Source of the DNA: Gammaproteobacteria bacterium | GTDB lineage: Bacteria; Pseudomonadota; Gammaproteobacteria; Steroidobacterales; Woeseiaceae | Length of the DNA stretch: 64,000 nucleotides | Direction of reading: 5' to 3' | Assembly (NCBI GenBank): GCA_013151645.1 | Contig: JAADHU010000005.1 | Location: forward strand, 1-64,000 | In this document: one piece after another, positions 4,782 to 47,526 of the stretch | Numbering within the stretch: position 1 is the stretch's first letter | Layout of the letters: each line of letters opens with the position of its first letter | Program-made: the position numbers and the translations under genes | The notes under the pieces: model-generated | Databases searched by the model: none | What the model was told of the DNA's origin: nothing | The model's input: only the letters and a program-made list of their open reading frames with translations

Positions 4782-4843
4782 GCTGACTGTTACCGTAAAG
4801 ACGAAGCTTTTGTCGGTTTTAACGGGTGTTTTTTCGGAATGGG

Positions 4844-4980
4844 GTGCTACGGACCCGCGTGGCGAAGTTGGCTTCTGAGACCCGCTGCAAGTACATCCAT
4901 GTAAGCTCGGGCCCCGCATCCCTGCGGGGCACGGTCTCAGAACCCAACTTCGCCACACGGGTCCTTGATCGTGGTTCACA
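4844..4980. repeat. 137-bp palindromic repeat, copy A
   Basis: A long imperfect palindrome lies between the convergent 3' ends of the Smr gene and truD. The left arm 4851-4882 and right arm 4933-4964 pair at 30 of 32 positions around a 50-bp core (4883-4932). The core holds two further hairpins: TACAT-cc-ATGTA, and GCCCCGCA-tccc-TGCGGGGC. The outer ends are GTGCTACGGA and CCTTGATCGTGGTTCACA. The same element, also 137 bp, recurs inverted at 47390-47526. It carries no plausible gene. It could work as a bidirectional terminator, but I see no U-tract. Confidence 0.9.
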
Positions 4981-5001
4981 AATTCCGGGACTTCATGCGC
5001 T

Positions 5002-6018
5002 TCAGTATCGTGGGACGGTGTAGGAGAGTATTTCTCGTAGCACGGCCGTGGCAAATCCGCCCCGGAACAGGGAAAACTCAAGTACCAGGTTGTCTGCCCG
5101 CCACTCCCAGTTCAAGTCGCGGACTACGAGACGCAGCGCGCGGCGGCCTTCGTCCGTCATCTTTTCCAGGCCTGTGGTCAACTTTTCGTGATGCGCTGCT
5201 GCCTGCATTTCAATTTCGGCGACCTCACCGATCGTCGTCGGTGCGCCTTTTCCCCAGAGCGGGCCGGTTGGATGAATGTCGAAGTCGCGGCATCGTTGCT
5301 GAAGGTCGGTGTCTGCGTCGGTTACGGGAAACAGGCTGCCGCTTCCGTCGAGATTGGCGACCTCGCCAGCGAGTATCGTGTTCCAGTTTCCTGCCAGGAC
5401 CCTCGCCGACAGTACTTCATTGAAGATCAGCGCCCGTGCCGCTGACAACGCGATAGAGCGTTGCTCACGCGGCATTCTTTTGCGCGCGAACAAGCGCTCA
5501 GCCAGGCCGATATTGCTGCCGTTTCGGCCGAATCGTTGTTCGCCGAAGTAATTGGGTACACCCGCTTCCGAGATGGCCTCCAGCCTCGCCTGGACCGTCG
5601 AATCCGGGTCAGACAAATCGCGAATCCTTATTTTGAAGCGGTTGCCGTGATGAGCGCCTCGGCGCAGTTTTCGATTGTGCCGGCGTATCTCCAGGACGGA
5701 TACGCCTTCCAGCGCCAGTTGCTGCCAGTCCGCCTTGACCCCGCCCGGGCGTCGCACGCTAAACCATTGCCGGGTGACTGCACGACGATCTTTCATGCCC
5801 GCGTAGCCCACGTCGCGAACCGGAACAGCCGCATGGCGGGCCAGCGCACGCGCGACCCAGGGCGTATTCGCATCGGTTTTTTCAATGTACAGGTAGTCGT
5901 GTTCGCCCTCTCCCTGCAATTCGAAGGAGGGAATTTCCACCACTTCAAAATCCTGCGGCTCTACGCGTAGCTGTCCGGTCGCGGTCGTTCGACCACCGCT
6001 GTGTTGCCAACTCGGCAA
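5002..6018 (-). CDS. truD: tRNA pseudouridine(13) synthase TruD, 338 aa
   Basis: Converts U13 of tRNA-Glu to pseudouridine. Motifs: VEPQDFEVVEIPSF near the start, EKTDANTPWVARALAR, the catalytic block GYAGMKDRRAVTRQWFSV with Asp77, and NYFGEQRFGRNGSN in the middle. The insertion region and C-terminal part also match TruD. I chose TTG at 6018 because AGGAG sits six bases before it; the longer frame starts with a TTG at 6042 and no ribosome site. The normal upstream neighbours ispD and ispF are missing: only 72 bp separate it from ftsB. Its 3' end faces palindrome copy A. Confidence 0.95.
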   Translation of the reverse strand: MPSWQHSGGRTTATGQLRVEPQDFEVVEIPSFELQGEGEHDYLYIEKTDANTPWVARALARHAAVPVRDVGYAGMKDRRAVTRQWFSVRRPGGVKADWQQLALEGVSVLEIRRHNRKLRRGAHHGNRFKIRIRDLSDPDSTVQARLEAISEAGVPNYFGEQRFGRNGSNIGLAERLFARKRMPREQRSIALSAARALIFNEVLSARVLAGNWNTILAGEVANLDGSGSLFPVTDADTDLQQRCRDFDIHPTGPLWGKGAPTTIGEVAEIEMQAAAHHEKLTTGLEKMTDEGRRALRLVVRDLNWEWRADNLVLEFSLFRGGFATAVLREILSYTVPRY

Positions 6019-6090
6019 CGTGAACTCCTGTTGAGAGGACAAAATCGGAATAGGCGGCGCGCAGGGCCGGTTAACAGGCCCTGGCCCGAA

Positions 6091-6381
6091 TCAGGAAGCG
6101 TCGCGAGCGGGAACGACCTGGTAAAACGTTTCGGACGGGCCGATCATGCCGAGATCCGTTCGCGCCCGTTCTTCCGCTGCGTCGCGTCCGTGTTTGAGAT
6201 TGAGGACTTCTGCATCCAGGATGGCATTTCGCGCTCGCAGCGACTCGTTCTCCAAACGCTGTCGATCCACGGCAAGTCGTAGATTGTGCATTTTTCGATA
6301 ACCATCGTCGGACAACCACAGCTGCCCCTGCAACGTCAGTGCCATGACGATCAGAACAATCATTATCCAGCGTGTGCTCAA
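6091..6381 (-). CDS. ftsB: Cell division protein FtsB, 96 aa
   Basis: Single-pass bitopic protein of the FtsQLB divisome complex. It has an N-terminal membrane helix (WIMIVLIVMALTLQGQLWL), then a periplasmic coiled coil (LRLAVDRQRLENESLRARNAILDAEV) and the family block DAAEERARTDLGMIGPSETFYQVV. The start is a TTG at 6381 with GGGGA six bases upstream; an ATG at 6363 would cut into the membrane helix. It follows eno by 45 bp, the usual eno-ftsB order. Confidence 0.93.
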   Translation of the reverse strand: MSTRWIMIVLIVMALTLQGQLWLSDDGYRKMHNLRLAVDRQRLENESLRARNAILDAEVLNLKHGRDAAEERARTDLGMIGPSETFYQVVPARDAS

Positions 6382-21288: not shown

Positions 21289-23754
21289 TTAAAATGCCTG
21301 ACCGATAGAGAACTGAAACCGCTCTAACTGATCCTTATAAAATCTATCGTTCCCCTTGAACTCATTCAACGGGAAGGCGTAGCTAAATCTAAACAAGCCC
21401 AGCGGTGCCAGCCATTGCACGGCCAGACCCACCGACGTTTTTAGTTCATTAAAATCGGGCTTGTACTGTACCGGGCTTCCCAGCTTGTCCAGGAAAGCGA
21501 CTTCGCCTGTGTTAAAGACGTTGCCGATATCGTAGAAAATACTGGCCCTGGCCTGACTGGCAAACTTGTCGGGCAGCGGGATTATAAGCTCTAGTTGGCT
21601 CGCAACCAACACATTACCACCATATGGGCGGGCAAAACTGTCTCTTGGCCCCAGCCACGACTCCTTGTAACCGCGCACCGTCAGCGGACCGCCACCGAAA
21701 AACTGCTTAAACGGTGGTAAGGCGGTGGTACTGCCCAGCGCTTCGCCGATAGCAAGCTCGGCATTTGCCCGCAAAGCCCAGGGTCCGTAAATCGGCACAT
21801 ATTTAGTAAAATTGTAGCGTGCGGTCCAGAACTCGACATCGCTGCCGGGACCGGTCATCGAGGCGAAAATCTGGTGCCGGCTACCGCGGGTCGCAAAAAG
21901 ACTGCGATTGCGGCTGTCGAAGGACCATCCGGCAACCAGTTCTATTGACGTAAAATCGGTACCGAAAAACTCCACGCCGTTACTCGCGGTTTGCCTGAAC
22001 GGAGAACCGTTGTTGAGCACCCAGTCCTGAGCCTGTTGCGTGCTCCGCGTTGATGAGAGCAGTTCGTTGCCCTGGTAATTGACACCGAAACTCAGTCGCT
22101 GATAGTCGCTGATCGGATATCCATAGTTCAACGTCAGCCCCAGACTGGTCGTTGAGAAATCGGACGCCGCGGATACAAACTGCGTGATATCCCTGTAATT
22201 GACGGAAACCGTTCGGCTTACACCGTTGATCGTGCGATACGGATCGGTATGGGACAAGGAATAGAGTTTCGAAAACCGTCCTGAGTTGAGTTGCAAAGCG
22301 ACCCGATTCCCGCTACCAAGAAAATTGGTATGCACGATACTGCCATTCAGGATCAAGCCTTGCGATTGTGAAAATCCGAGACCACCACTGAATTGGCCGG
22401 GCATCCGGTAGCTCAAATCGAAATCGACATCCACCAGGTCCGGACTGCCGGGTACCGGGCTGTTTTCGACTTCGACCTTTTCGATATACGGCAGACGTTG
22501 CAGGAGAATTTTCGAGCGGTCGATCAGACGATTGGAGAGATATGCGCCTTCCGCCTGTCGCATCTCGCGGCGCAGAACCTCGTCGTCAACCTCATCCACG
22601 CCTCTGAAATTTATACGGCGCACGTAGACCCGGCTCTGTGGGTCGACGTAAAAAGTGACCGCCGTTTCCTTCTTCTCGTGATCGAGTTCCGGCACCGGTT
22701 CGATCTCTGCGTTCGCATAGCCTTCCTCGCCGAGTCGGAATGACATCAACTCGGCCGAACTGGTCAGCATGTTCAAATTAAAAATATCACCCGGCTTTGC
22801 CAGCACCAATCGCTGCAGTTGCCCTTCCGGCACCACCATTTTGCCAACCAGTTTTACTTCGGAAATGGTATAGCGTTCACCTTCGTGCACGTTGATGGTG
22901 ACGTAGATATCCTTTTTGTTCGACGATATCGCCACTTGTGTCGATTCGACGCGAAAGTCGGCATAGCCTCGATTCATGTAAAACGAACGCAGCGTTTCCA
23001 GGTCACCACTCAATGCCTCTTTCGCGTATCGGTCATCCTGTCTGAACCAGGACAGCCAGTTCGCCGTATCCAGCTCAAACCCCTTGCGGACCTCGGCGTC
23101 CTCAAAGGTGTGGTTACCCACGACATTCACCTGGCGGATTCGCGCTCGATCGCCCTCTTTCACATTGATGTTCACGCGGACCGTATTGTTGGGTCGATCC
23201 ACAACTTCCGTATCGACAACGACGGCGTATTTGCCCCGGTCGTAATACTGTTCACGCAAGAACATGGCAACATTGTCGAGTACAGATCGATCGAAGGTAC
23301 GTCCGCGTGCGAGGCCGACGCCACGCAGGGAATCCATCAGGTCTTCCGTCTTGATGTCTTTGTTACCTTCGATGTTGAAATCTTCAATCGAAGGACGCTC
23401 GCGTACGGCAACTATCAGTGTCGTACCATCGCGCCGCATTTCGATATCATCGAACAGAGACTGCTCATACAGGGTTCGAATCGCTTCCTGGATGCGTAAA
23501 TCGTCGACCCGATCTCCCACATTGATCGGCAGGTAATTGAATACCGTTCCCTCCGATATACGTTGCAGCCCCTCGACACGCATATCGCCGACGACGAACT
23601 CTTCCGCCAGCACCTGGCCGAATCCGAAGACGGCAAAACCGACAAACGACACAAAGTATCGTCGCCACAATCGAAAAGCGGTCTTTCCCCTCACACGATT
23701 CCTCATAATTCCCATTGCCGGTGGAAACCACCCGGCCGATATACGTAGTTTCAT
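21289..23754 (-). CDS. bamA: Outer membrane protein assembly factor BamA, 821 aa
   Basis: Central Omp85 insertase for outer-membrane beta barrels. A long signal (basic stretch, then YFVSFVGFAVFGFGQVLA) precedes POTRA 1, which begins FVVGDMRVEGLQRISEGTVF. Five POTRA repeats reach about residue 440. The 16-stranded barrel follows and contains the lid-lock type segment FFGGGPLTVRGYKE (the VRGY motif). The protein ends with an aromatic Phe (FSIGQAF), the beta signal. The ATG at 23754 overlaps the rseP stop (ATGA); internal ATGs at 23715 and 23706 would shorten the signal. Length is typical. Confidence 0.97.
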   Translation of the reverse strand: MKLRISAGWFPPAMGIMRNRVRGKTAFRLWRRYFVSFVGFAVFGFGQVLAEEFVVGDMRVEGLQRISEGTVFNYLPINVGDRVDDLRIQEAIRTLYEQSLFDDIEMRRDGTTLIVAVRERPSIEDFNIEGNKDIKTEDLMDSLRGVGLARGRTFDRSVLDNVAMFLREQYYDRGKYAVVVDTEVVDRPNNTVRVNINVKEGDRARIRQVNVVGNHTFEDAEVRKGFELDTANWLSWFRQDDRYAKEALSGDLETLRSFYMNRGYADFRVESTQVAISSNKKDIYVTINVHEGERYTISEVKLVGKMVVPEGQLQRLVLAKPGDIFNLNMLTSSAELMSFRLGEEGYANAEIEPVPELDHEKKETAVTFYVDPQSRVYVRRINFRGVDEVDDEVLRREMRQAEGAYLSNRLIDRSKILLQRLPYIEKVEVENSPVPGSPDLVDVDFDLSYRMPGQFSGGLGFSQSQGLILNGSIVHTNFLGSGNRVALQLNSGRFSKLYSLSHTDPYRTINGVSRTVSVNYRDITQFVSAASDFSTTSLGLTLNYGYPISDYQRLSFGVNYQGNELLSSTRSTQQAQDWVLNNGSPFRQTASNGVEFFGTDFTSIELVAGWSFDSRNRSLFATRGSRHQIFASMTGPGSDVEFWTARYNFTKYVPIYGPWALRANAELAIGEALGSTTALPPFKQFFGGGPLTVRGYKESWLGPRDSFARPYGGNVLVASQLELIIPLPDKFASQARASIFYDIGNVFNTGEVAFLDKLGSPVQYKPDFNELKTSVGLAVQWLAPLGLFRFSYAFPLNEFKGNDRFYKDQLERFQFSIGQAF

Positions 23755-25106
23755 TCGACTAAAATTCTGGAAATGTCGTTATAGAACGCAAAGCTCATCA
23801 ACAGGATCAGAGCGAGAATGCCTATTTGTTGGCCGACGATTTGCGAGCGCATTGACAACGGGCTGCCCTTCAATCCTTCGATACTTTGATACACGATTTG
23901 GCCACCATCCAGTACTGGAATCGGCAGCAAATTGATGACGCCCAGGCTGATGCTGACCAGGGCCAGAAAACGCAAGAACGGGTTCAGCCCCGCTGATGCT
24001 GAAGCACCGGCGTATTGAGCGATGTTAATCGGGCCGCTGATGTTCTTCAGCGACACGTCACCGGTCAACATGCGTCCAAACATCGTAAAGGTGAACGTAG
24101 TTGATGACCAGGTCTGCTGCAGAGACTGGCCGACGGCCGCAACGGCACCGTATTTTCGCATATACCAAAAATCGCCGGCTGCGCGGTCGAGCCCGACACC
24201 GAGGAGTCCACTTCGAATGCCGTCGCTGTCGACATGGCCCAGCGTAACACCAACGATCAGCCTGGCCTCGTTTCGAACAAGCTCCACGTCGACGTATTGG
24301 TCGGCGCGCGCGGTAACGATGCGCTGCAAGTCGGTGAAGCTGCCGACGCGTTCACCGTCGATGCCGACGATTCGATCGCCTAACTGAATTCCGGCCGCTT
24401 TTGCTGCGCCCTCAGGACTTAAGGAACCCACCGTTGCCGGCGGTTGCCAGGGGTAAAACCCCAGCCCCTCGAACAACATTCCGGGTTCCGTCAACCTTTC
24501 CGTATCGCCCGCAACGTCAATAGTCGCAATACGCGTATTGCCATCTTCGTCCTCGAGACGCAGTTCGATGCGCCCGTCGCTGAGCATCGCGTCGAGCATG
24601 GATACGAGCGCCGTCTCCCAATCAACCGCATCGCGCTGTTCGACCTGCAGGATTCTATCTCCGTATTGCAGACCCGCTTCGGCCGCGTAGGAATTATCCA
24701 GCACCTGCCCAACGGCGGGTTTCATCGTTGGCACGCCGTTAACGAACAAAATCCAGTACGCCAGGATCGCGAACAGGAAATTGAACAACGGTCCGGCAAG
24801 AAGCACCGCGATCCGCTGCGGTACCGGCCGATGATCGAACGCCCGCCCCTGGTCTGCCTCATCCACCGGCCCCTCGCGTTCATCAAGAAACTTGACGTAA
24901 CCGCCCAGTGGAATGGCCGAGAGGCAATACTCGGTCTTATCAGCACCCGCAACTCGGCTCCAGATTGACTTGCCAAAACCGATGGAGAAGCGCAGCACTT
25001 TCATGCCGCACCACCGACCCACAATGTAGTGGCCGAATTCATGCACCGCCACCAGCACGCTGATCGCGACAATAAAAGCCAACAAGTTCGTTAGCGTTTC
25101 AACCAT
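23751..25106 (-). CDS. rseP: RIP-type zinc metalloprotease RseP, 451 aa
   Basis: Site-2 intramembrane protease that cleaves RseA to release sigma-E and clears signal peptides. The zinc site is VHEFGH with His22, Glu23 and His26, the same numbering as E. coli. Two PDZ domains follow (about 110-200 and 205-290), and the second metal ligand lies in NLLPIPVLDGGQIVYQSIE. Several hydrophobic helices lie at both ends. It directly precedes bamA with a four-base overlap. The usual upstream neighbour dxr is absent. Confidence 0.96.
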   Translation of the reverse strand: MVETLTNLLAFIVAISVLVAVHEFGHYIVGRWCGMKVLRFSIGFGKSIWSRVAGADKTEYCLSAIPLGGYVKFLDEREGPVDEADQGRAFDHRPVPQRIAVLLAGPLFNFLFAILAYWILFVNGVPTMKPAVGQVLDNSYAAEAGLQYGDRILQVEQRDAVDWETALVSMLDAMLSDGRIELRLEDEDGNTRIATIDVAGDTERLTEPGMLFEGLGFYPWQPPATVGSLSPEGAAKAAGIQLGDRIVGIDGERVGSFTDLQRIVTARADQYVDVELVRNEARLIVGVTLGHVDSDGIRSGLLGVGLDRAAGDFWYMRKYGAVAAVGQSLQQTWSSTTFTFTMFGRMLTGDVSLKNISGPINIAQYAGASASAGLNPFLRFLALVSISLGVINLLPIPVLDGGQIVYQSIEGLKGSPLSMRSQIVGQQIGILALILLMSFAFYNDISRILVE

Positions 25107-25299
25107 CAGTTGCCCTTTATTCCAAATATTATCAAGCGCTTGTTCCCTTTAATTAAAGTCGGTGTTACGCTCGCTTTGACCACTGCACACAGAGTGTGAC
25201 TGGCCTTCCAGGCGGCAGTTCCCGGCCCGCTACAGCACTCGCTGTATCGCCAGCGTAGGCTTGCCGGTATGAACCGCGGCTGAACAAACAGCGCCCTCA
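25107..25299. other. Spacer in the dxr slot between cdsA and rseP
   Basis: In most gammaproteobacteria dxr (about 1.2 kb) lies between cdsA and rseP. Here only 193 bp remain. The one minus-strand frame across it (65 codons) shows no NADPH-binding or metal-ligand motif of Dxr, so I see no recognisable remnant. A stem of the form AAGCGCTTG lies near the rseP end. Confidence 0.6.
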
Positions 25300-26091
25300 T
25301 CATGTAAGACCCGCAACGGCGACACCTGCCGCAAACAAAGTCGATGCGGCGGTTACGCTATCGATACGATCCAGCAGACCGCCGTGGCCGGGAAACAGCC
25401 TGCCGCTGTCCTTGATTCCGGCATGTCGCTTGAACATGCTCACGGTCAGGTCACCAACCACGGATAAGAGTCCTATAGCCAGACAAAACGGCAGCAGGAC
25501 GGCAAGGTTGGTTTGCCCCCAGACGCCGTACGCCGTTGCCAGCACCGAGACCGCCAGCAGCCCGCCCACCACGCCTTCCCAGGTTTTTCCCGGACTGATA
25601 CTCGGCGCAAGCTTCACCCGGCCAAACCTTTTGCCGGCGAAATACGCGCCGATATCAGCCGCCCATACAATGGCCAACAGGAAAAGCAGCAACGACGGTG
25701 AGCGCGAATAGAGCCAGTCAAGTGCCACGTATGCGGGCAGCAAAACGAGTACTCCGCACAACCAGCCAACCACCTTTGGGATGGCGGTCGGATAGAAAAA
25801 CATCCAGGCCAGTGCGCTCAACCACCAACCGACGGCGATATAAAGCACCGTTTGGTAGGCGATCGTGCCCGGTACCAGCCACCACGCGGCCACTTGCAGC
25901 AGCGCAATGCTGACGACGTAAGTCAGGCGGCCCGATGTCCCCGAAAATGCCAGAAATCCGGACCACTCCCAGGCTCCCGCGACAAAAAGAAGGGCGATAA
26001 CCAACCGGGCTGCCGGTTGCGGCAATTGATACAAAACCAATAGCAGCAGGACGATAGCGATCAGGGCCGAGATTACGCGCTGTTTCAACAT
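25300..26091 (-). CDS. cdsA: Phosphatidate cytidylyltransferase, 263 aa
   Basis: Makes CDP-diacylglycerol for phospholipid synthesis in the inner membrane. About eight hydrophobic segments start at MLKQRVISALIAIVLLLLVLY. The family signature near the C-terminus is complete: SMFKRHAGIKDSGRLFPGHGGLLDRIDS. WAADIGAYFAGKRFGRVKLAPSISPGKTWEG is also diagnostic. The start at 26091, one base after the uppS stop, is preferred; the frame from 26184 overlaps uppS. Confidence 0.96.
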   Translation of the reverse strand: MLKQRVISALIAIVLLLLVLYQLPQPAARLVIALLFVAGAWEWSGFLAFSGTSGRLTYVVSIALLQVAAWWLVPGTIAYQTVLYIAVGWWLSALAWMFFYPTAIPKVVGWLCGVLVLLPAYVALDWLYSRSPSLLLFLLAIVWAADIGAYFAGKRFGRVKLAPSISPGKTWEGVVGGLLAVSVLATAYGVWGQTNLAVLLPFCLAIGLLSVVGDLTVSMFKRHAGIKDSGRLFPGHGGLLDRIDSVTAASTLFAAGVAVAGLT

Positions 26092-26092
26092 C

Positions 26093-26857
26093 TCAGGCAA
26101 TTCCCAGCTGTTTTTCGGTGTTGCCGTAGCGACGTTGGCGGCTGGCGTAAAACGCCATGGCATCATCGAATTCGTCCTCGCCAAAATCGGGCCACAGACA
26201 ATCGCTGAAATACAGCTCCGCGTAAGCGAGATTCCAAAGCAGGAAATTGCTGATGCGTCGCTCTCCGCCAGTGCGAATTAATAAGTCCGGATCTGGAACA
26301 CCACCCAAAGCCAGCGCCTGCGAAAAATGCGATTCCCCGATCTCGTCCGCCTTCAAGTCGCCTTTCGCTACGCATTCGGCCAATTGCCTGGCCGCGTTGA
26401 CCATGTCCCAGCGACCACCGTAAGCAACCGCCACGATCAGTGTCAAACCGCTGTTGCCCTCAGTCTTGGCCTCGGCGGCCTCGATCTTTTTGCACAGCCG
26501 ATTCTGTAACCGCTCGCGCGCACCAATAAACTTGAGCTTCACATTATTACGATGCAGGGAATTCAGTTCTCGTTGCAGTGCCTCGACGAAAAGCCCCATG
26601 AGTTTGCTAACTTCAACACGTGGGCGCTGCCAGTTTTCGCTGCTGAACGCGAACAAGGTCAGATAGGAGACTCCACGCCGGGCTGCGTGTTCGACGATTT
26701 TTCGGACCGGGGCGACACCGGCACGATGACCGGCATGTCGCGGTTTCGAACGGTCTTTCGCCCAGCGCCCGTTACCGTCCATTATGATCGCTACATGCTC
26801 GGGAACATTCCCGCCACCCAGGCTATCCGTTGAAGTTTGTGCATCGGCTACTGACAT
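26093..26857 (-). CDS. uppS: Isoprenyl transferase (undecaprenyl diphosphate synthase), 254 aa
   Basis: Cis-prenyltransferase making the C55 lipid carrier precursor from farnesyl diphosphate and IPP. Motifs: VAIIMDGNGRWAK with the catalytic Asp, HRAGVAPVRKIVEHAARRGV, LTLFAFSSENWQRP, VAVAYGGRWDMVNAARQL, and DPDLLIRTGGERRISNFLLWNLAYAELYF. The protein shows that isoprenoid precursors are still needed although dxr, ispD and ispF are missing from this neighbourhood. Confidence 0.97.
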   Translation of the reverse strand: MSVADAQTSTDSLGGGNVPEHVAIIMDGNGRWAKDRSKPRHAGHRAGVAPVRKIVEHAARRGVSYLTLFAFSSENWQRPRVEVSKLMGLFVEALQRELNSLHRNNVKLKFIGARERLQNRLCKKIEAAEAKTEGNSGLTLIVAVAYGGRWDMVNAARQLAECVAKGDLKADEIGESHFSQALALGGVPDPDLLIRTGGERRISNFLLWNLAYAELYFSDCLWPDFGEDEFDDAMAFYASRQRRYGNTEKQLGIA

Positions 26858-26868
26858 TAGACCATCAA

Positions 26869-27426
26869 TCAGATTTCCATCAACTCGCTTTCTTTTTCCG
26901 CGAGGATCTTGTCGATGTCGGCGACATTCTTGTCGGTAATGGTTTGAATTTCGTCATGGGCGCGACGTTCGTCATCTTCGCCAATCATTTTTTCCTTAAG
27001 AAGGTCTTTAAGATCGCCCAATGCATCGCGACGGATATTCCTCACCGCGATCCGCGCATTCTCGGCCTGCTGACGCACCAGCCGAATCATGTCCTTGCGC
27101 CGTTCTTCGGTCAGTGGCGGAAGCGGCACACGGATGATCGTGCCTGCCGTGGCCGGATTCAGCCCCAAATCCGAGCCCATAATGGCTTTCTCGATCGGCT
27201 GCACCATGTCTTTTTCCCATGGCACAACGGACAAGGTGCGGGAATCTTCGACGTTGACGTTGGCAACCTGCTGCAGGGGCACAGCACTGCCATAATATTC
27301 CACCGTAATATGATCGAGCAGGCTGGTGTGTGCCCGCCCGGTCCGAACCTTGGTCAATTCCTGACTGAACGACGTTACACTTTTTTGCATACGCCCGGTG
27401 GCGTCTCGTTTGATGTCATCAATCAC
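26869..27426 (-). CDS. frr: Ribosome recycling factor, 185 aa
   Basis: Splits post-termination ribosomes together with EF-G. It begins with a GTG ([17 protein letters not shown]). [67 protein letters not shown] and the C-terminal [21 protein letters not shown] are canonical. It lies 36 bp after pyrH and 11 bp before uppS. Length equals that of E. coli RRF. Confidence 0.97.
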
Positions 27427-47389: not shown

Positions 47390-47526
47390 TGTGTACCACG
47401 ATCAAGGATACGCGTGGTGAGATCAGTCTCTGAGACCGTGCCCCGCAGGGATGCGGGGCCCGAGCTTACAGGGACGTACTTGCAGCGGGTCTCAGAGACT
47501 GATCTCACCACGCGTCTCCGTAGCAC
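47390..47526. repeat. 137-bp palindromic repeat, copy B (inverted relative to copy A)
   Basis: Arms 47406-47437 and 47488-47519 pair at 31 of 32 positions around a 50-bp core that differs from the copy A core at only two positions. The arm sequences, however, match copy A at only about 23 of 32 positions, with the changes mirrored in the opposite arm. It lies between the stop of the giant surface protein and the start of the helicase gene, both on the minus strand. Confidence 0.9.

Follow-up and report, generated by a model that had tools for sequence, protein, structure and literature searches.

A mevalonate gene cluster in place of MEP pathway genes, and retained DXP-dependent vitamin enzymes, in a lineage of Gammaproteobacteria

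The MEP pathway has very probably (about 95%) been replaced by the mevalonate pathway in the gammaproteobacterial lineage from which the window derives, the window being the whole stretch of 64,000 nucleotides that was analysed. The genome that holds it lacks dxr, ispG, ispH and a full-scoring dxs, carries a mevalonate gene cluster in which HMG-CoA reductase (HMGR) and mevalonate kinase (MVK) are fused, and belongs to an order in which HMGR and dxr show a complementary distribution. The organism is an uncultivated gammaproteobacterium, and Woeseiaceae are its closest named relatives. Replacements of this kind are known; what sets the present one apart is the fusion, together with the lack of a source of DXP. 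Bacterial MEP-to-mevalonate replacement has been described, and Staphylococcus and Cellulomonas are among the genera with a split strategy (PMC10663253; review PMC13001223). The present case resembles the known ones in that MEP genes are lost, mevalonate genes are present and lineages differ at low rank. It differs from them in that the switch concerns a large gammaproteobacterial group, left an empty slot in a conserved operon, involves a fused HMGR-MVK and spared DXP-dependent vitamin genes; for none of these features was a precedent found in the literature searched.

The minus-strand gene order in the window is pyrH-frr-uppS-cdsA-[193 bp]-rseP-bamA. The relevant features are:

21289..23754, minus strand: bamA, with Omp85 and POTRA domains
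23751..25106, minus strand: rseP, site-2 protease (PF02163 and TIGR00054)
25107..25299, minus strand: empty dxr slot, the cdsA/rseP interval, with no family match and no Dxr remnant by tblastn
25300..26091, minus strand: cdsA, phosphatidate cytidylyltransferase (PF01148, 4.5e-51); the start at 26091 is our choice, and the reading frame as listed extends to 26184
26093..26857, minus strand: uppS, undecaprenyl diphosphate synthase, for which IPP is still required (PF01255, 4.4e-82)
26869..27426, minus strand: frr, ribosome recycling factor (PF01765)

The sole frame across the gap between cdsA and rseP (65 aa, 25106-25303) matched no Pfam or NCBIfam family, and tblastn with the Dxr proteins of about 20 relatives gave matches at chance level only (best E ∼0.16 among the matches listed). 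Repeats, a promoter and a terminator were also sought in the slot, and nothing rose above chance. In all 20 dxr-containing relatives examined from the same bacterial order, dxr is found at exactly this place, flanked by cdsA and rseP. The family search, the tblastn search and the comparison with relatives thus bear out the original prediction that dxr is missing from this slot and that 193 bp remain without a remnant. The order uppS-cdsA-dxr-rseP, which had been called usual, holds for the relatives within this order of bacteria (20/20) and not for Gammaproteobacteria at large, since E. coli has frr-dxr-uppS, with dxr ahead of uppS.

The source genome is a draft of 3.96 Mb in 83 contigs (98% complete), and the evidence from the window was purely local; dxr could in principle have moved, or lie in an assembly gap, with the MEP pathway still running. 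Genome-wide profile searches covered dxr, dxs, ispG and ispH. No HMM match to dxr, ispG or ispH was obtained anywhere in the genome (E≤1e-3), using searches that gave matches in 9–10 of 14 genomes as controls. Matches to DXP_synthase_N were present, and the three loci inspected all proved to be transketolase or PDH E1 subunit genes; no match in the genome attained the TIGR00204 equivalog cut-off for dxs, and those read were therefore rejected as true dxs. The predicted concerted loss of the MEP pathway is upheld for dxr, ispG and ispH (no match) and for dxs (none over the cut-off). A complete MEP set elsewhere in the genome would speak against such a loss; of that set, dxr, ispG and ispH were looked for and are absent. 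With dxr nowhere in the genome, ispG and ispH gone too, and the same pattern shared by 180 genomes of the order, single-contig ones included (see below), a relocated or unassembled dxr is exceedingly improbable. Likewise, ispG and ispH are needed under any DXR type. Their absence, together with the failure of every dxs-family match to attain the cut-off, leaves hardly any credence for a swap of type I dxr for a DXR-II/DRL-type reductoisomerase with the remaining MEP pathway kept, for which the DXR-II family, a known non-orthologous replacement, provides the precedent (PMC3847144).

HMG-CoA reductase gave a single match in the genome, on contig 10 (locus L002), in a cluster with the layout ispA(-), mvaD(+), PMK-type GHMP kinase(+), a 748-aa protein(+), idi type 1(+) and mvaS(-). 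Four of the functions scored above the curated NCBIfam cut-offs: (i) a class II HMG-CoA reductase in residues 4–387 of the 748-aa protein (TIGR00532, 381 bits versus a cut-off of 260); (ii) mevalonate kinase in residues 449–724 of the same protein (TIGR00549, 250 versus 163 bits); (iii) diphosphomevalonate decarboxylase, MvaD (TIGR01240, 234 versus 171 bits); and (iv) type 1 IPP isomerase (TIGR02150, 150 versus 106 bits). The best NCBIfam match of the PMK-type kinase, which has a fitting position in the cluster, was TIGR01220 at 111 bits, under the cut-off of 166. The HMG-CoA synthase, MvaS, was above cut-off for PF01154 and PF08540 and reached 165 bits in NCBIfam, under the cut-off of 360. 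As both are below the NCBIfam cut-offs, their names rest on the best family match and the place in the cluster; the best PDB match of MvaS is HMG-CoA synthase 5hwp (4e-33). Woeseiaceae loci keep the same cluster arrangement, dinB, ispA and mvaS included, and their MvaS is 74–78% identical to that of the source genome. The mvaS gene itself (L002, 17351-18823) encodes a divergent protein of 490 aa, whose closest structures (5hwo, 5hwp and 5hwq, ∼4e-33) match chiefly its N-terminal half.

A mevalonate route to IPP, as originally proposed, is supported by these matches, with HMGR, MVK, mvaD and idi above their cut-offs and the PMK-type kinase and mvaS below. Setting the two gene sets against each other, as had been suggested, gives a mevalonate cluster that is present and dxr, ispG, ispH and a full-scoring dxs that are absent. 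The HMGR half falls in the class II family that NCBIfam terms 'degradative' (TIGR00532), which would suit mevalonate genes that are catabolic, as in Pseudomonas mevalonii, in a cell importing its isoprenoid precursors; fusion of this reductase to mevalonate kinase and its clustering with mvaD, idi and ispA point to synthesis, and we very nearly discount the catabolic reading. In the preferred reading, replacement of one pathway by the other, the lineage would have taken up the mevalonate pathway as a gene cluster in place of the MEP pathway, and dxr would have been lost from the uppS-cdsA-dxr-rseP slot along with dxs, ispG and ispH. IPP would be made from HMG-CoA via MvaS, the bifunctional HMGR/mevalonate kinase, phosphomevalonate kinase and MvaD, and idi-1 would provide DMAPP for IspA and UppS. 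The enzyme activities, the flux and the horizontal acquisition of the cluster are what we infer from gene content and arrangement.

The distribution of the two pathways was assessed in 296 genomes of the order. HMGR without dxr was found in 180 of them (hereafter MVA or MVA-only genomes, a label by which HMGR alone is no proof of the full pathway in a relative), dxr without HMGR in 94, both in 15 and neither in 7. Five single-contig genomes (G065, G070, G029, G088 and G060) have the same pattern as the source genome, which is therefore no assembly effect; the MEP-to-mevalonate switch extends over whole lineages and is not peculiar to this one genome. The MVA-only genomes listed mostly have a frame of ∼740–850 aa, matching the size of the fusion. 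The reductase of the 15 genomes with both genes (for example G003, G009, G187 and G221) is perhaps catabolic; it is unfused, at 391–491 aa, in the four for which a frame was listed. In G003, whose family includes MVA genomes too, dxr again occupies the cdsA-rseP slot, as a 21st case. A two-gene tree (AceE and RibBA) grouped the MVA families imperfectly, with five changes of which only one was forced by well-supported branches; it appears compatible with one or several switches and does not decide between them. The case amounts to a whole-pathway swap in Gammaproteobacteria, and predicts that fosmidomycin-type drugs would be ineffective on these bacteria.

The reductase and mevalonate kinase, which catalyze consecutive steps, form one 748-aa protein in the source genome, both halves over curated cut-offs. 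A scan of named genomes found fused HMGR-MVK in many Gammaproteobacteria, in Acidobacteriota and Calditrichota, in one Planctomycetota MAG and in cultured Cryobacterium. In a tree of the fusion the fused proteins cluster together (SH-aLRT 99), as does the main gammaproteobacterial set (99), and the protein of the source genome groups with those of Woeseiaceae (100). Cryobacterium stands beside a MAG of Salinisphaera, and the gammaproteobacterial group includes one MAG with the label Nakamurella; transfer or misbinning therefore occurs. In Myxococcaceae and in Virgibacillus/Oceanobacillus HMGR is likewise followed by a neighbouring MVK, but the two are separate genes, and the tree places them apart from the fused group. 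Enterococcus MvaE is a bifunctional acetoacetyl-CoA thiolase-HMGR, and thus also joins a class II HMGR to a second mevalonate-pathway enzyme; here, in contrast, the reductase is joined to mevalonate kinase, which acts next in the pathway and is located at the C-terminus. Residues E84, K268, D284 and H382 of the HMGR half, which we take to be the catalytic ones, are invariant in an alignment of 12 fusions. The AlphaFold model of the fusion (pLDDT 76.5, pTM 0.45) has a low-confidence linker at 428–437; an argument for channelling from this model was dropped, the model being too weak. Mevalonate could be trapped or channelled by such a natural fusion of HMGR and mevalonate kinase, and a literature search found no earlier report of one.

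Dxs makes DXP, which is drawn on for the synthesis of vitamin B6 (through PdxJ) and of thiazole (through ThiG) as well. PdxJ was found in 283 of the 296 genomes of the order, the source genome included (7.5e-98). Among the 180 MVA-only genomes it is kept in 171, and none of these 180 is among the genomes with matches above the dxs cut-off, which exposes a hole in the pathway. Full-length ThiG is present in seven MVA-only genomes from three families. With Dxs lost, DXP is therefore not made by Dxs, though PdxJ, and in some lineages ThiG, needs it. At all 17 of the presumed active-site positions examined, PdxJ aligned from 14 MVA genomes matches that of E. coli. The gene remains in the ancestral rnc-era-recO-pdxJ-acpS block at the MVA loci; a DXP enzyme beside pdxJ was considered and rejected, the neighbourhood being this ancestral block. 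PdxA of the source genome is 49% identical to that of E. coli and is encoded in surA-pdxA-rsmA-apaG, and PdxA was also found in nearly all MVA genomes tested. The substitute B6 route, PdxST, was not seen in 35 genomes, including the 27 MVA genomes tested, with a chimeric query in which Pfam identified the PdxS portion as SOR_SNZ; it was rejected as a replacement. In the MVA families f5, f8, f16 and part of f6, which include ThiG-keeping families, PdxJ scores lower (E ∼1e-80 versus 1e-100), and may possibly represent a second PdxJ lineage.

That PdxJ is a relic or acts on another substrate, so that no DXP is needed, would fit the failure to find a DXP source, but sits poorly with the intact active site, the conserved gene block, the retention of PdxA with PdxST not seen, and the keeping of ThiG, a second user of DXP, in seven MVA genomes; we consider it unlikely. 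The B6 genes resemble the E. coli-type DXP-dependent PLP pathway (PMC9997740) in PdxJ and PdxA orthologues, intact active site and genome context, and differ in that the genome is without Dxs. The portion of that 2023 survey of B6 pathway holes used here names Epd, PdxB, SerC and PdxH, and Dxs is not among the holes named there (PMC9997740). A literature search found no earlier report of PdxJ without Dxs.

No source of DXP was found in MVA genomes by the Dxs profile, by inspection of AceE and RibB for bypass residues or among the neighbours of pdxJ. In E. coli, loss of dxs is suppressed by AceE Q408R, L633R or E636Q/G, or by RibB G108S or D113G, and trace DXP has been reported without Dxs (PMC3424233). 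This bypass, proven in the laboratory and in a gammaproteobacterium (PMC3424233), could suggest that a mutant-type AceE or RibB produces DXP here as well. However, AceE Q408, L633 and E636 are unaltered in every MVA genome aligned, and RibB G108 and D113 in every MVA genome aligned and in the source genome; these changes were rejected as a DXP bypass, and the explanation is very unlikely. Slightly in its favour, RibB of the source genome stands alone (L228, contig 9, 2070-2720), flanked by nrdR and nusB, and reads E-S at E. coli T106-T107, next to G108; aligned relatives keep T106-T107, and at this place in relatives the frame is of RibBA length.

It may be, and we propose this tentatively, at somewhat less than even odds, that MEP-less gammaproteobacterial lineages make vitamin B6, and some of them thiamine, via DXP from a source independent of Dxs. 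The likeliest supply, we think, is a low-level side activity of pyruvate-decarboxylating TPP enzymes; another, separate DXP-forming route is almost as likely. The vitamin demand is far below that for isoprenoids, and a PDH-type side activity may thus suffice. A 2023 survey regards Dxs as the one replaceable MEP step, for which alternatives probably exist, and names none (PMC10663253). The MVA genomes provide a defined set in which DXP would serve vitamins only; as both suppressor mechanisms known from E. coli are apparently excluded, the question of an alternative to Dxs becomes testable. Downstream of pdxJ (L143, 13763-14515) lies a gene that reads as a methylthioadenosine/methylthioinosine phosphorylase-like one, present at this position in 9 of 14 MVA and 1 of 5 MEP loci; it would be relevant if an MTA-isoprenoid shunt, made up of RLP isomerase and the cupin MTXu-5P methylsulfurylase, supplies DXP.

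The window also contains the presumed second slot, from which MEP genes, ispD and ispF, had been said to be missing. Its features are:

5002..6042, minus strand: truD (PF01142)
6043..6090, minus strand: second empty slot, the ftsB/truD interval of 48 bp, where ispD/ispF had been expected
6091..6381, minus strand: ftsB, with a DivIC domain (PF04977, 5.7e-18)

Within the window this part of the prediction is confirmed, the gap of 48 bp (6043-6090) holding neither ispD nor ispF. In the same window, a palindromic intergenic element occurs in two copies of opposite orientation (4821-4990 and 47390-47526; 84% identical over 137 bp), with 32-bp inverted arms at 4851-4882 and 4933-4964, and is REP/MITE-like.
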